Shown here: one piece after another, positions 48,101 through 63,846 of the stretch
How the letters are laid out: every line of letters begins with the position of its first letter
Numbering within the stretch: position 1 is the stretch's first letter
NCBI RefSeq assembly: GCF_910596095.1
Contig: NC_056551.1
Location: forward strand, 13,843,501 to 13,907,500
Length of the DNA stretch: 64,000 nucleotides
Direction: 5' to 3'
Source: Thunnus maccoyii
Taxonomy: Eukaryota; Chordata; Actinopteri; Scombriformes; Scombridae
Made by a program: the position numbers and the translations under genes
The notes under the pieces: model-generated
The model's database searches: none
Told to the model about the DNA's origin: nothing
The model's input: only the letters and a program-made list of their open reading frames with translations

Positions 48101-48992
48101 CGAATACACTGACAAATAAATTACTAAATCAATCATTTTTCACATACAAATAAATACATTAACAAATGGCAAAAAGATACACACATGCAGAAATGTAGAG
48201 ATAGGGAGGGACAAGCTAAATCCCTAAACACACTAAGTGAGTGACTGATCGAGTTTGAAGCACTTTAGCATCATAAACACCACTTTATGGGTCACGTCTA
48301 TCTCATTACTGACTTAAATGCTGTTTAGAGAAGACTTTCCCCATTCTCTTCCCACACTTACCGTACTGATGATAGCGTGTGCCATATCCAGGTCTCGATC
48401 TCGGCCTCGGTCTCTCGTACACATCATAATAATTGTAATATGGATTATCGCTATCAATGGACTTGTAGGGATCGTAGGGATCATCACCGACCATCATGTC
48501 TTCTCTCCTGGGCAGAGGCGGGCTGACAGTGACCTTTTCCTGGGTGCCATTGGTTCTGCGTCTCGGTGTCTCACTGGCGCGATGGTGATGCTGGCGGTTC
48601 TCGTGCCCTCTCACAAGCCTTTGGAGCGCGGGCGTGAGCGGATGAGACCCCGGCCGGGGAGGCTGCTGCCGCTGCTGCTGCTGGACCGGTGGCTGGCTAG
48701 AGGTGTCCGGATGTCTCACGTCTGCATCGCGGATGATGGTGACAGGTCGCGCCTGCACTTGCTCCTGAGGTGCGCCCCTCCGCCTCGGTGGCTGGTACTC
48801 CGAGCCCTGACTTAAAATGCTAAAAATCTTGCCGTTGTGTGACCACTGTAGTGTCTGCCGGAGAGCCGCTCTTTGGTTATTTCCTTGTGGATTCCCCGGA
48901 TTCTGAGATTGGGCAGCTTGCAGGATGAAAACAAATAAATAGACGCACGCATACGCGTAAAGTGGCGTGCCAAATATGCGTAATCCCATCAT
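42134..48992 (-). CDS. lox: protein-lysine 6-oxidase (lysyl oxidase)
   Basis: This secreted copper amine oxidase oxidises lysines in collagen and elastin to start cross-linking. Exons in transcript order are 48992-48362, 48036-47928, 47468-47331, 46090-45934, 42608-42513, 42350-42235 and 42140-42134. All are GT-AG and in phase, giving 417 aa, identical to human length. A signal peptide covers residues 1-28, then an Arg/Gln/Pro-rich propeptide. The BMP1 site MVG|DDPY falls at Gly169-Asp170. The copper ligands His292, His294 and His296 sit in [13 protein letters not shown]; human has Tyr where this has Phe295. The LTQ cofactor residues Lys320 (EGHKASF) and Tyr355 (CYDTY) match human numbering exactly. 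The last exon codes only the final Tyr, the stop and one base of the preceding Thr. Confidence 0.97.
43274..43655. mobile_element. MITE family 3 (lox intron 4)
   Basis: The left end aaaggtgcagtgtgcagaat ttagtgg is mirrored by tgtcactaaatcttacacac tggtccttt on the right. The element body includes ggttgcaatctgcaacctca. It is a common fish inverted-repeat element without coding capacity. Confidence 0.8.
43860..45172. mobile_element. nonautonomous DNA transposon, ~1.3 kb (lox intron 4)
   Basis: The left region, ggggacagcacgatgagctg with cacaatatc and gattatcgtggccaaaa, is echoed in inverted form on the right by aatatcacggttatcatcaa and tatgttgcgacacccctagt. Interior DNA (gcgccagtcatcagcaaaat; cgcccgtgggcgggccga) codes for nothing recognised. 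Boundaries and family are uncertain. Confidence 0.45.
45173..45582. repeat. probable dispersed repeat (lox intron 4)
   Basis: The stretch tcttttagcagctaaatgct ccac and ttgtttggtgctgggaaggt has the look of a dispersed fish repeat lying between two transposons. I cannot define its ends. Confidence 0.35.
45583..45829. mobile_element. short MITE with ~40-bp inverted ends (lox intron 4)
   Basis: The left end gacctttttcacagcagata ttttgac is mirrored on the right by gtcaaaatgtctcatgtgaa aaaggcc. About 100 bp upstream of the acceptor of lox exon 4. Confidence 0.7.
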
Positions 48993-49097
48993 GAATTCAA
49001 TTAAAGGAAAGTGAACGTGACAAAGCGAAGTATTTCAAATGATCCCGGGGTCGCCACTTGTCTTTAACTTAAATATCCTTCATCTCCATTTGAAGGA

Positions 49098-55607: not shown

Positions 55608-55613
55608 TTTATT
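55608..55613 (-). terminator. poly(A) signal of the C1q/peroxidase transcript
   Basis: A minus-strand AATAAA lies 440 nt beyond the C1q stop codon. No AATAAA occurs on this strand between the last peroxidase exon (59764) and the first collagen-like exon. Confidence 0.55.
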
Positions 55614-56052: not shown

Positions 56053-59000
56053 TCACACAGTGAAAAGCAGGTGTCCCGAGAAGAAGCTTTTGGGGCTCAG
56101 GCCTGAGGTCCCGTCGCTGGCTTCCAGCCACACTTGGTCTCCCCTCTCCAGCCGGAGCGCTGTGTCCCCTGATGACAAGTAGCGGCCTCCCTGATACACC
56201 TTGAAACCGCGAAGCACCAATTCTTTGTTACACCACAGGTCTACACTTCCTGCACCGGTGAAGGATGTGCAGAGGAAGCTGAACTTATAGACACCAGGGA
56301 TGACGCATGTGAATACACCTGTCTGTGTGCTGTAGTGGTTCTGTTTGTTGTGGATAACCTGACGGAAACAAATGATTTTCTCAGAGGATGGATTGTACTC
56401 GCCCAGGCGGATGGAGAAGGCAGATTGTGGCTGTATGGCATTGATGCTGACTGCTGGTGATCCAGGAGGGCCTCTCAGGCCAGGGGGTCCTGCGGGATCT
56501 GTAGAGAAACAAAAGTAAAGATTACTTTAAAATATTGTAAAACGTACAGCTTATTGTAGGTTTGTCACAATTAGGTTCCGTCTAACTACCCACATTTTCA
56601 CCTTTGATCTAATTTGATAAAATAAATTGATTGATGCTATATTAACAGTTATTTGTTTGCCAATGAATTCCAAAGTCACATTTATTTGTTACACTGACCT
56701 ATAATTTTTCATTTCTTCTGTTTATTCTGTTTTAAATCCATTTTTTCTTATTTTTATATAGTATTTTATTTCATTCTTTTAAAATCATATTTAGGTGCCC
56801 TGTGTTTCTTTTATTTTCTCCTCTTAATGCCTTTTTAAACATTTTAAATTCCCTTGTGTTAGGCCTATACAAATAAAATTGCCTTACTTTGTGCTGTCAA
56901 CATAGAATATTTTAAAAGACAAAACTGATGACAGTTTTGCACTGATCCAAAATATGGATGTCTCTGCTTCCATATCATGAACAACTCTGGAAAATTTTAC
57001 CCATAGTTCAACTGGTTGCCAACTACTTTTTAAAATGATCTTTTTAAAGCTCCTGAGGGTCTTGATCCCAGCTGTATTTTTGGTTAACCCATCTGTTAAC
57101 TCATCTATAACCCTGTGCTTATAATTCATTATTATAATTTGGCACCATCGTCATGTTCTAAGTAAAACTGATAAAATAAAAATTTAAATGACTGTGACTT
57201 GCTATGGTGTCACTATGTGTTTAGTTTTGATATTAAATAAACATTTTGAGCTTTTTATAAGATATGCAACAACATAATAGATGTGCAAATGGATGAACAC
57301 ACTACCTCATTGTCCAGGGGTTCCTGGTAGTCCACGGGGCCCGGAAATGAATCTGCAGCCTGCATATCAAGAAGAAGTATAAGTTAAGCTTATTTACCCA
57401 TAGTTCAGCTGGTTGCCAAAACTACTTTTTTGATCTTTTCAAAGCTCCTGAGGGTCTTGATCCCAGCTGTATTTTTTTTGCTAAAACAACCTGCAAGTCT
57501 AAGCTGAATAACACTGTTTGTGTAAATCTATTTGTTTAAAAAGTAGACTTGCAAAATCCTGCTGTTAACTCATCTATAACCCTGTGTTCAATGACTGGAA
57601 ATTTTCATAAATGTGTTGTGCTAAATGAGAAGTGCTTTGTTACCCTTTTAATTTATTTATTATTATAATTTAGAATCATTGCCACGTTCAATCATTGTAA
57701 AACTAATAGATAAAAATGAAAATTTTAACATCTGTGACTTGTTATCGTGTCAGTATGTGTTCAGTTTTGATCTTAAATAAACATTTTGAGCTTTTAAGAG
57801 GACATTCAGCAACATAAAAGATGTGCAAACGGATGAACACACTACCTCGTTGTCCAGGGGCTCCTGGTAGTCCACGGGGTCCGGAAATGAATCTGCAACC
57901 TGCATATGAAGAAGAAGTATAAGTTAAGCTTATTTACCCATAGTTCAGCTGGTTGCCAAAACTACTTTTTTAAATAATCTTTTTAAAGCTCCTGAGGGTC
58001 TTGATCCCAGCTGTATTTTTGATGCTAGAACAACCTGCAAGTCTAAGCTGAATAACACTGTTGGTATAACTTGATTTGTTTAAAAAAATAGGCTTGCAAA
58101 ATCCTGCTGTTAACTCATCTATAACCCTGTGTTCAATGACTAGAAATTTTCATAAATGTGTTGTGCTAAATGAAAAGTGCTTTGTTACCCTTTTAATTTA
58201 TTTATTATTATAATTTAGAATCATTGCCACGTTCAATCATTGTGAAACTGATAGATAAAAATGAAAATTTTAACATCTGTGACTTGTTATCGTGTCAGTA
58301 TGTGTTTAGTTTTGATCTTAAATAAACATTTTGAGCTTTTAAGAGGACATTCAGCAACATAAAAGATGTGCAAACGGATGAACACACTACCTCGTTGTCC
58401 AGGGGTTCCTGGTAGTCCACGGCGTCCGGAAATGAATCTGCAACCTGCATATCAAGAAGAAGTGTAAGTTAAGCTTATTTACCCATAGTTCAGCTGGTTG
58501 CCAAAACTACTTTTTTAAATAATCTTTTCAAAGCTCCTGAGGGTCTTGATCCCAGCTGTATTTTTTTTGCTAAAACAACCTGCAAGTCTAAGCTGAATAA
58601 CACTGTTTGTGTAAATCTATTTGTTTAAAAAGTAGACTTGCAAAATCCTGCTGTTAACTCATCTATAACCCTGTGTTCAATGACTAGAAATTTTCATAAA
58701 TGTGTTGTGCTAAATGAGAAGTGCTTTGTTACCCTTTTAATTTATTTATTATTATAATTTAGAATCATTGCCACGTTCAATCATTGTAAAACTGATAGAT
58801 AAAAATGAAAATTTTAACATCTGTGACTTGTTATCGTGTCAGTATGTGTTCAGTTTTGATCTTAAATAAACATTTTGAACTTTTAAGAGGACATTCAGCA
58901 ACATAAAAGATGTGCAAACGGATGAACACACTACCTCGTTGTCCAGGGGCTCCTGGTAGTCCACGGGGTCCGGAAATGAACCTGCATCCTGCATATCAAG

Positions 59001-59566
59001 AAGAAGTATAAGTTAAGCTTACTTACCCATAGTTCAGCTGGTTGCCAACTACTTTTTTAAATGATCTTTTTAAAGCTCCTGTGGGTCTTAATCCCAGCTG
59101 TTTTTTGGATGTTAAAACAACCTGCAAGTCTAAGCTGAATAACACTGTTGGTATAAATCGATTTGTTTAAAAAATAGGTTTGCAAAATCCTGCTGTTAAC
59201 TCATCTATACCCTGTGTTCAATTACTTCTACTACCTCGTTGTCCAGGGGTTCCTGGTGGTCCATGGGGTCCGGAAATGAACGTGCATCCTGCATATCAAG
59301 AAGAGATAAAAGTTAAGCTTATTTAGCCTCATGATTTAAGAAATTTCTCAAAATGTGCTTGCATCAGTGAACCATGAATGTTTTCTTTTGGAGTAAGGAC
59401 CCCTTTCACCAAGTTAGTGACAAAAAGTTAAGAACAACAAGTGTTTGCATGATCTGAATGCGTAATTAAAGGAGGTGTGGCTTCATTGTGCTGTTGAAAT
59501 GTGAGTACCACTTGTTAACACCAACCTGTGATTTACTGACTTCATCACAGTTATCATCACCCGGGC
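56053..59566 (-). CDS. collagen-like stalk and C1q domain (probable 3' half of the peroxidase gene)
   Basis: Exons in transcript order are 59566-59537 (30-nt linker), 59288-59235, 58988-58935, 58444-58391, 57899-57846, 57359-57306 (each 54 nt) and 56498-56053. Each 54-nt exon encodes one unit such as GCRFISGPRGLPGAPGQR: four Gly-X-Y-like triplets interrupted by a Cys-containing CRFIS. The final exon codes DPAGPPGLRGPPGSPAVS and then a complete C1q globular domain with F..V..N....Y....G.FTC.IPGVYKFSF, LRLERGDQVWL and FFSGHLLFTV before the stop. All introns are phase 1. The most 3' collagen exon has CGA changed to TGA, an in-frame stop, but skipping it keeps frame. There is no start codon or signal peptide of its own, and the phase matches the last peroxidase exon, so I read it as part of that gene. 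A separate, incompletely seen C1q-like gene is the alternative. Confidence 0.75.
56985..59290. repeat. tandem array of ~540-bp units carrying collagen-like exons
   Basis: Exon starts are spaced 540, 545, 544 and 300 bp. The intervening introns are nearly identical (cccatagttcagctggttgc; gctcctgagggtcttgatcc; ttaaataaacattttgagct), with a degenerate partial unit at 56985-57300 and a shortened last unit. High similarity means recent duplication or conversion. Confidence 0.9.
57306..57359 (-). other. collagen-like exon copy 1 with in-frame stop
   Basis: It is the same length and has the same splice sites as its sisters. Its last full codon is TGA where the other four have CGA. Used, it would end the protein before the C1q head; skipped, it costs 18 residues and keeps frame. 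Confidence 0.75.
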
Positions 59567-59763
59567 CTGCAAGGTCAAACACCACATATGAAGAATAATT
59601 TTCATATATACAGGTGATAGTATATATGAAAGAATATATAGTGAAGAAATAAACAACCCATGTTAAACACAGAATGAAAAATATAGTGGGTTACAAATGA
59701 GTGAATTTGTGAATGTTTAGAGCTCCCCCTGCAGCAAAAATGTTTGGCCGTGTGATGTTTCAC

Positions 59764-62700
59764 CTGAGTTCCCTGTACATGGTCTCTCCCTCCAGGCCAT
59801 CAGATCCAGGCTGCGGATGGAGGCGCAGCGGATGCGTGGGTTCCTGCCTGTCTGAAGGTTGAATACGTCTCTGGGGACGGAAGTGATGGCGGTGTTGTCA
59901 CAGATGATCTTGGACAGGGAAGCACGGGACAGGGTAGTCCTCTGTCTCGGAGTGAAGACACCCGGGTTCTGGTACCACAGCCTATTTCAAATGAAGACAT
60001 TTATTTTGTGATAGTGTAATCAGTCAGCAGCAGACATTTGATATATAAATTGATAAAATAACTGACTATATCTGACAAACATTGAAAAATGTATATGTCT
60101 GAAAATGAATGAAAGTTTTGTGTAATTTCATTTTGGACCCATCTATCAAACATTTGTCAGGACTGAAAGGCAGCAACCTCACTGAAAATATCTGACTTTT
60201 GCACCCCCTGGTGGTAGTGTCAAAAACACAGTGGTACACAGAAATGCACGCCTTTACCACAACTCCCTGCTCTCCCACCACCCCACAGCCCCCACCTGGG
60301 TGAACTGAGATGACTGGGCTCAAAGCAACTGGGATTGTCTTATTTTTCTAAAAACAAAATGTATTAGTTGACATACTGACCTGTCACCTCGGCGGATATC
60401 CCTGAACTGGTTTGCGATAAGACAGGCGAACAGAGGCCCCACACGGCCACCGCGGACAAACGGCTCTGCAACACCTCCCAGCCAGACATCGATATTGTCA
60501 GGTGTACCGTAGAGCTGCAGAAGTCTGCGGGCCAGGTTGCTGTTGTTCAGAACCCGACCAAGCTCTACCTGGTTCCTGGGCTGTGACAGGCCACAGAACC
60601 TGCGCCAGGCGTTGTAGCCTAGTGGAGTGAACAACAAGAGCAACAAGAAGCATGAGGATAAATGAAACTTTAAGCAGAAAATTCAAAGTCTGAAAATCAG
60701 TGAGGAATGTACCAGGCAAGCCATGATCACGTCCCCTCTGCATGTTGAGAGAACCCAGGTCCAAAGCCATTTCCATCACAAACTGGAACAACCTCTCCCT
60801 CAGAGCATCAACCATCATGTGATCCTGAGTGTTCAGCTTAGCAGGACGGTCAATCAGACCCCTCAGCAGAGGGTCAATGCCACCTGGAGAGAAAAAACAG
60901 TATGATATATTAAGGTGACAGTTTAAGACAGAGTGACTCATAAGTTAGATTTTTTTTTGTACAACTCACCCTCAAAGATAATTCTCCAGGGGGTAAAGAA
61001 GGCCTTGAACAAGGGGACATTAGGGAACTGACGGTTTTCTCTGAAGTTGGCATCCAGACGGGACAAGAACGGCTGAATGGCCAAGTGGGCGAAGCGGTAG
61101 GCTGCTGTTGCAAAGACATTGGAGATGCTGGGGTCAATGTTGGGATTGTAGCCTGGGTAACGGCCAAGCTGTCTTCTCATTGCTTCGTCACCCACAATGT
61201 GTGGCAGGTAGTCCCGGAACACAAACACCTGATAGACACAGAGGGGGGTTTATTATTGTTTATTCTGTATGACACATACTTTGGAGATGAAAATATAAAT
61301 ATATATGCTTAATGATTCTCAGGTTTAGCTACCTGTGTGTAAGCACCCATGATCTTGCGAGCCTCTTGGTAGAGCGTCTCACTGTCCCAGTGTGGGTTTA
61401 ATCTCTTTAGTTGTCGAGCCAGGCGGTTATGCTCACGCAAAAACAGTGTGTGGATGGAGGTCAGAGCGATGTTCTCATCCACACGGGTATCACCTTAAGG
61501 ACAGAAATGCAGCAGGCATCAAATATTATCCTTGATCAGAGGAGTTAATTTCCTCTTTAGACTCAGATGTTTGGCATCTATTTCTATTGTGAGTTGTAAA
61601 TAATAAATTATTTAGTGAATTCATTAATACTTTAGTAAATAATATAGTAAAAACAGTATCTGTATTCATGTCTCCCCTAAAATATTTTGTTACAGAGGTG
61701 GCTTGGTCTGAATATTTCTGCGATTGCACGTTGCTACTCATGAAGGTGACACTACTCTATAGAGTATATAGACTACAATATAGTATATAATTGACTATTT
61801 ATAATATATAGTTTAGAAAATATTGTAGATCCAAGATGAAACTGACAGAGGGGCAGGACAGAGAGAAAAAGGTGCAATTGCAAATCCGTCTGCTACTTCA
61901 GCACCACAGATAGCGCCATGGATTTATCAATACACAGCACAGTTATGCTACTGATATTTCAGAGCCATTGACTGGGCCATAGATTCTAACTTGCATAAAT
62001 CTCAGTCAGATAAAGGATCAATGTGTCAGACCGACCAGACTAACATATTCAACTAAACAACCTCTCTATCCCTGCACTCTCTCTGCTACTAGGGGATGGA
62101 GAGGGGGGATGGAAGGTTAACAAGGAGGTTGCATTTTGGTCGTTTTGCTAACAAGGGGGATGGCATATCCCCTCATCTCCCCCTCATATCGGCTACTTGC
62201 CATAAATTAGAACAATGTAGCTTGCTTTCTCTTTTTAATTAGCTTAGTTAATTTGCTTTTAATGGCCTGACAGTTTTCACCAGAAAAAAAAAAGTTTAAA
62301 TGCTCAAATGACCTATGTTTACATTTCCAATAGCAAAGACCTGGAGGTCAGGGTGCATGGCTGTGCATGCAAAATGTGTGATTTTGACATCAAAGATAGA
62401 AGTTCACATCCTGTTTCCTACCAACAGTCAACCTTGATTTCTGTTGAAATCAAGGTTTCCTAACCTCAACAAAGTAGATTTAGATGCCTAAACGTAACCA
62501 AAAATACAGGGGCAGCAGATCAGAAAAAGTTCATATGGATCATCGTGAAACGGCCATTAGATATGAAGACTCTCATATTATTGATATTTCTTGCATTATT
62601 TTTTTGAACAGTTATGTGCAAATTATTAAAATGCACACTTGATGGATTATTATATTGAAAACTACCACCATGATTTACCAACATTTATAACTGCAGACCT

Positions 62701-63846
62701 GATGTCTTTTTATAAAGTGACAAAAACATGACGCTTTATCAAATATTTATTTTCTAATAAGCCATCAAGGCTGTTATAAAGGTTAATAAATCATCAATGA
62801 AGGATCATGGTTTTCTCACTTTTTTCCCAATCATCAAGAAAATTTAGACAGATGTTATGCTAGAGGAGGCACAACAGTTTTTTTTCACAACCTGGCAACT
62901 CAAATTATTACTATCTACTAAACATTAATTAAGTACTATTTATAAAGCCAAGATGACTGACCTGCAATGAAACAGGGCACTTCTCTGGCATTTGTGTTGT
63001 TGGTGACTCTTCCACGAGTGGCACACATTTTCACCTGCATAGGGTGGAAGGGCAGCAGCTCACGCCCGTTGTCTTTGAACTCTGCATTCACTCGCAACAG
63101 TCCACCATCCCTATCAAGGTCACGAAGAAAGAGGGCAAGCTTGTCCTCAGAGCCGTAAACCTGGCTGAGATCCAGGAAGGCTGTCAGGGCATTGATCTGC
63201 TCTCTCTTGTTGGGCTCTCCGCCAAAATTGTAGGCTGAGAATCCTGTTCCGCAAACAGGGGCTGATCTAAACGAAGGGATGCAGCTCTCTGGGCCTGGGC
63301 GAATACGGGGGTCATTGGGAGGAATCTGTTTTTAGGAGACAGAAGTCAAAAGGTTATGGATAGAATCTTTTAGTGAAAACAACATCCAAGTGTTTGGGTT
63401 TGAGTTTGAGTTTTGACACCAACCGCGATGGGGATGCACGGCTCAGTTCGCTCACAGCTTTCATCACAGTTCACCCCATTACTAAAGGAGCGGATGCTGG
63501 GGGAGAAGGGCGTGAAGGTGAGATCGTGGTCGTTCCACTGGCCAAACAAGGTCACCATGTGAGTGAATTCTCTGTCGCTAACCACACCTCCGTCATTTGT
63601 ACTGAGGATGTTATTGGACACTTGTCGGACCTGAGATCAGAGCAGAAATGGTTGGTTTCAATTCATATCAGTATTTCTCAATAAAACTGTCTTTTAAGCG
63701 ACTGTCATCAAGATCGTACCAGGGGGAGCAGGAAGTTGTTGATCCTTCGGTTGTTCCATCCTTTTGGTTGGGAGATGCCATCGTCATATTCGGCGGCCAG
63801 CAAGCGGCGGAAGGGAGTGTTGGAGGCTCCGAGGCGAGGTTTGTTT
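59764..63846 (-). CDS. haem peroxidase, MPO/EPO/LPO family (5' end beyond window)
   Basis: This is an animal haem peroxidase that uses H2O2 to make hypohalous acids or oxidise small substrates; family members are granule or secreted proteins of phagocytes. Visible exons in transcript order are 63846-63720, 63630-63424, 63325-62962, 61493-61333, 61228-60970, 60883-60713, 60618-60381 and 59981-59764, all in phase. Seen: [19 protein letters not shown]; the distal Asp-His pair in [37 protein letters not shown] with catalytic Arg and haem-linked Glu; the proximal-side [38 protein letters not shown]; and [10 protein letters not shown], aligning with the MPO C-terminus. Asn replaces the Met that gives MPO its sulfonium link, so EPO/LPO-type haem binding is expected. 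The last exon ends TCA G|GTGAAA, phase 1, in register with the collagen-like exons. The signal and propeptide are outside the window. Confidence 0.93.
61500..62961 (-). other. peroxidase intron, unique-looking DNA
   Basis: This is a 1.47-kb intron between the GDTR exon and the preceding exon. It contains no recognised repeat apart from AT-rich tracts. Confidence 0.6.

Follow-up and report, generated by a model that had tools for sequence, protein, structure and literature searches.

Does the gene near one end of this 64,000-nucleotide stretch of Thunnus maccoyii DNA (the window, C19:13843501-13907500 of the genome) encode a haem peroxidase that ends in a C1q head, and what decides whether the head is made? 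The initial annotation had claimed a peroxidase, a collagen stalk and a C1q head in one gene, and this arrangement is supported by Pfam matches here and by the occurrence of the same domain pair in many fishes. Exon borders and spliced frames place the peroxidase, collagen-like and C1q coding segments on the same (minus) strand in compatible phases. A frame running through every exon to the C1q stop, as also claimed, does not exist in the assembly, as a TGA interrupts the last repeat exon and the higher-scoring donor of the linker exon leads into another frame. From the gene sequence, splice form may decide whether the predicted secreted peroxidase carries the C1q head, a proposal for which we consider the case about evenly balanced.

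The minus-strand exon set comprises eight peroxidase exons, a linker, five 54-nucleotide (nt) repeat exons and a terminal C1q exon with AG/GT borders; peroxidase exons A to H each have such borders and an open joined frame. Four further coding exons lie upstream in the gene, outside the window, and the coding part thereby spans about 9.3 kb. Coordinates are those of the window unless C19 is given.

C19:13908819 (outside the window), minus strand: gene start MLFSVLLLLGICLVPAHA..., signal-peptide-like by eye
C19:13908819-13907799 (outside the window), minus strand: four upstream coding exons, beginning MLFSVLLLLGICLVPAHAEQAG
63846-63720, minus strand: peroxidase exon A
63630-63424, minus strand: peroxidase exon B
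63325-62962, minus strand: peroxidase exon C
61493-61333, minus strand: peroxidase exon D
61228-60970, minus strand: peroxidase exon E
60883-60713, minus strand: peroxidase exon F
60618-60381, minus strand: peroxidase exon G
59981-59764, minus strand: peroxidase exon H, the last, ending in phase 1
59522..59566, minus strand: linker exon L, with two candidate donors at 59526 and 59522
59235..59288, minus strand: repeat exon c1, 54 nt, read as GCTFISGPHGPPGTPGQR in the collagen frame and DARSFPDPMDHQEPLDNE in the other frame
58935..58988, minus strand: repeat exon c2, 54 nt
58391..58444, minus strand: repeat exon c3, 54 nt
57846..57899, minus strand: repeat exon c4, 54 nt
57306..57359, minus strand: repeat exon c5, 54 nt, with a collagen-frame TGA at 57309-57307
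56053..56498, minus strand: last exon, Gly-X-Y triplets followed by the C1q domain, stop TGA at 56055-56053
55608..55613, minus strand: AATAAA 3' of the C1q stop, a candidate poly(A) signal that could serve both forms

The phases first reported for these exons hold in part. Exon H ends in phase 1, and the 54-nt and C1q exons can be entered in phase 1. Exit of the linker in phase 1 requires the weak donor at 59522 (TTG/gtgtta, 45-nt linker, collagen frame), which scores -3.65 bits with a table of donor-site frequencies, against +2.0 bits for the donor at 59526 (CAG/gttggt), which yields a 41-nt linker that leaves in phase 0 and opens an acidic tail. In the collagen frame c5 ends CAA TGA G, and thus an all-exon transcript with the 45-nt linker stops at 839 amino acids and never reaches C1q. 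We enumerated 96 exon combinations, joining no linker, the 41-nt linker or the 45-nt linker to each of the 32 subsets of the five repeats. Skipping the linker keeps the collagen/C1q frame, and C1q is reached in 16 of 32 combinations without a linker, in 16 of 32 with the 45-nt linker and in 0 of 32 with the 41-nt linker; no combination among the 96 that contains c5 reaches it. Routes without the linker include exon H joined directly to the C1q exon (883 amino acids), where the stalk consists only of the few Gly-X-Y triplets of the C1q exon, and H-c1-c4-C1q (955 amino acids).

These frames bear on a first alternative, in which every exon, the linker in its 45-nt form included, is joined into one continuous peroxidase-collagen-C1q protein, and the c5 TGA reflects a sequencing error or a rare allele. 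The phases fit except for the TGA, and the 45-nt linker with the repeats minus c5 gives an open frame of 970 amino acids. Against this, the TGA stands in the assembly, the donor needed is weak, and the Thunnus thynnus protein P0039 shows the reading of the other donor; we consider this explanation improbable.

With the 41-nt linker, the repeats are read as DARSFPDPMDHQEPLDNE and its counterparts and continue into the last exon for seven codons (IPQDPLA) to a stop at 56477-56475. The product has 846 amino acids, lacks C1q and ends in a 97-residue acidic tail with 30 Asp or Glu and a single Lys or Arg. P0039 ('eosinophil peroxidase isoform X4', 828 amino acids) carries this 41-nt linker reading and matches the 846-residue form at 808 of 828 aligned residues, to its last residue. 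The base that closes the collagen frame in c5 is a T where c1-c4 have C, and leaves Asn unchanged in the acidic frame. A search with the P0039 tail returned two proteins, P0039 itself and P0113 of Scomber japonicus, which has a related acidic tail. When every third tail residue is taken in one phase, the codons start in G at 22 of 23 positions in P0113 and 22 of 27 in P0039. Such codons fit Gly in another frame, and the two tails thus resemble out-of-frame readings of collagen repeats. The silence of the c5 base in the acidic frame, the frame-keeping linker of a paralogue (below) and the Scomber count of 22 of 23 together lead us to suggest, tentatively and a little short of an even judgement, that one set of 54-nt exons may be read in two frames under a single linker exon, giving either a stalk that leads to a trimeric, surface-targeted peroxidase with a C1q head or an acidic tail that ends before the head.

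The database models P0011, P0012 and P0013 (from Liparis, Caranx and an Antarctic fish) have LLDNEV, LMDNEV or EEPQEPQEPQ between peroxidase and C1q, linkers that look like collagen exons out of frame. Repeat exons c2-c4 (58988-57846) belong to tandem units of roughly 540 bp; similarity between the copies is 94.7-97.2%, introns included, indicating that the array expanded by recent duplication and that copy number may differ between fish; the window gene has five repeats and P0039 has four.

Pfam scored the spliced product without c5 (c1-c4 kept) at 600.9 bits for An_peroxidase (PF03098; cut-off 25), 36.1 bits for Collagen (cut-off 27.2) and 82.9 bits, above cut-off, for C1q (PF00386); for the C1q domain of the last exon, 87.7 bits was also obtained. 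The peroxidase part is identical to P0039 at 550 of 566 residues (97.2%). Its alignment with human MPO (634 bits) reaches the MPO C-terminus and bears out the observation that MPO ends at WRE where the window protein continues. Haem-site stretches, the motifs that hold the catalytic residues, align with MPO GQLLDHDL, AGDTRSSE and FRYGHTLIQP. The Met of MPO AGDTRSSEM forms the sulfonium link to the haem; in the window gene Asn occupies its place (AGDTRVDEN), and the haem site is thus not MPO-like in that respect. Each stalk repeat contains one interrupted triplet (FIS) and one Cys. The C1q domain of the last exon is modelled with a predicted local distance difference test (pLDDT) score of 91.1, and the solved structures nearest to it in fold are those of adiponectin, collagen X, C1QTNF5 and C1q heads, several of them trimers by title.

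The state of the C1q exon is central to a second alternative, in which the scombrid gene has lost its head, the old collagen exons are read in the shifted frame and the C1q stretch persists as undecayed 3' untranslated sequence. In accordance with such a loss, the TGA of c5 stops the C1q frame while being silent in the acidic one, the acidic frame is the one that comes from the stronger donor, both P0039 and P0113 end in it, and a headed paralogue could stand in for this gene. Conversely, the C1q exon is open across 446 nt and retains 29 of 30 conserved C1q columns, and no decay was seen in distances to ten relatives, in which the exon showed no acceleration. The trees and distances used 15 hand-picked database proteins, ten of them in the bootstrap, with shortened or partial models left out. 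The open frame alone is a weak argument against loss, as, when neutral change was simulated 1000 times without insertions or deletions, 26% of the runs kept a stop-free C1q frame at 0.1 changes per site and 7.3% did at 0.2. Since C1q is missing from both the Scomber and Thunnus models, a loss, if real, would date far back. On balance, we regard head loss as rather less likely than splice-controlled attachment of the head.

Comparison within the same genome indicates that the junction is not peculiar to this locus. Genome searches gave at least 50 peroxidase and at least 145 C1q matches, and among the matches listed a C1q match directly follows peroxidase exons at two loci, the window gene and C9:18755141-18755497. 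At the C9 locus the last peroxidase exon, which leaves in phase 1, ends in TGGAGAGAGGATG followed by a gt donor, and the C1q exon stays open as far as a stop codon. Between the two lies a 33-nt stretch with AG/GT borders that encodes the linker EESSGETQGPA of T. albacares P0131 and preserves the frame, where the 41-nt linker of the window gene breaks it. Exact five-residue words of P0131 at this locus cover 858 of its 885 residues. A tandem neighbour, peroxidase L010 (C9:18731500-18741400), ends in SPWKENTE*; neither this gene nor the 9.2 kb beyond it gave a convincing C1q match, and it is possibly a natural headless copy.

The same domain order is widespread. The initial annotation had proposed a domain-architecture search in other teleosts, and the fusion proves to be in databases already, as gene models. 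PF03098 and PF00386 occurred together in 25 of 112 matches in one database search and in 101 of 120 rows listed in another, which combine to at least 108 distinct cluster representatives with both domains. Both searches scored just the candidates with the most words in common (7985 and 7959), the second listing 120 of 150, and absence of a group from them is no evidence that it lacks the fusion. Bearers include the holostean Amia calva, Anguilla and Conger of the eel lineage, herrings, carps, characins, pike, a cod relative and many perch-like fishes. Eosinophil peroxidase(-like), myeloperoxidase-like and myeloid-specific peroxidase are among the names that these models bear. The proteins form two paralogue groups, starting MLLSVLLVLG and MNRFLCLLAAG, and the fusion is present in both. 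Three fusion proteins of 868-894 amino acids are encoded on contigs of 2768-3133 bases with 83-526 bases outside coding, leaving no room for introns like those of this gene; these contigs are probably complementary DNA. Five peroxidase proteins, of which four are fusions, had no match in NCBIfam, a library for bacteria and archaea. The full-length model of Lates P0001 had a mean pLDDT of 49.5 and was not used, although its C1q end was better. Among open-licence papers, and with the terms used, no paper describing a peroxidase-C1q fusion was found, and passages of PMC5938384 and PMC13375457 do not describe one.

These comparisons also bear on whether two neighbouring genes, one for a peroxidase and one for a C1q protein, were merged by annotation alone. 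Merged gene models are a general risk. The initial annotation had noted no poly(A) signal between the parts, which is true of 59764-59566 but not of the whole interval from exon H to the C1q exon, where 13 AATAAA/ATTAAA hexamers occur on that strand, all intronic. An erroneous join is difficult to reconcile with at least 108 representatives across fishes, three of them on contigs too small for introns, or with a paralogue that has an identical junction; as the junction is both conserved and present in the paralogue, we hold this explanation to be very unlikely indeed.

Several observations weigh against splice-controlled choice of the head. C1q is attainable only when c5 is omitted, which is an extra condition, and the five repeat exons, with 9 variable sites, favour neither frame clearly. 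The acidic tail may be a by-product of gene modelling or splicing, as Gly-X-Y repeats are often open in their other frames too, and both forms are predictions from the gene sequence. The two nearest database relatives, Thunnus P0039 and Scomber P0113, are without C1q, a possible sign that scombrids have ceased to produce a headed protein from this gene, and Denticeps P0210 (803 amino acids) is also without it; a headed isoform could be hidden inside the 23-member cluster of P0039. The stalk is short in relatives, Pfam Collagen being above cut-off in 0 of 6 fusion proteins (two below cut-off, four with no match), and the three contigs that lack introns might conceivably represent processed copies.

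If splicing does decide whether the peroxidase bears a C1q head or an acidic tail, the linker exon would act as the switch. Skipping the linker and omitting c5, as in H-C1q or H-c1-c4-C1q, would give the headed product, which would form a trimer through the C1q head and stalk and so place three peroxidase units at the ligand of the head, probably microbial or damaged-cell surfaces. Inclusion of the linker with its stronger donor would instead give the 846-residue, headless, acidic-tailed peroxidase, which would diffuse freely. That the headed product would form trimers and direct oxidants to a target, as raised in the initial annotation, is an inference.

MPO, EPO and LPO share with the window gene the GQ..DHD, AGDTR..E and H..IQP stretches and a signal-peptide-like start, and MPO differs from it in its end point and in the Met noted above. 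The fish fusions (Lates P0001, Clupea P0015, Anguilla P0117 and Amia P0174) have the same order of peroxidase, short Gly-X-Y stretch and C-terminal C1q, whereas the window gene differs in its five 54-nt repeat exons, the fifth of which contains a TGA, and in a linker donor that shifts the frame. In adiponectin, collagen X, C1QTNF5 and C1q, the C1q fold likewise comes right after a collagen-like stretch, but in the window gene that stalk is preceded by a peroxidase, is short or interrupted, and has a Cys in each repeat.

Elsewhere in the window, a prenylcysteine lyase exon (PF07156, 338.5 bits) lies at 740-1903 on the minus strand, and an open frame at 48306-49034, also on the minus strand and with no Pfam match, resembles the first exon of lysyl oxidase.

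Mammalian granulocyte peroxidases stop at the point beyond which this protein extends. If the headed form is made from bowfin to perch-like fishes, many fishes could aim oxidants by means of a complement-type recognition module. Fish genes named for EPO or MPO would then not be simple counterparts of the mammalian enzymes that are used to interpret fish immunology, and the scombrid gene would be a test case of one exon array read in two frames.
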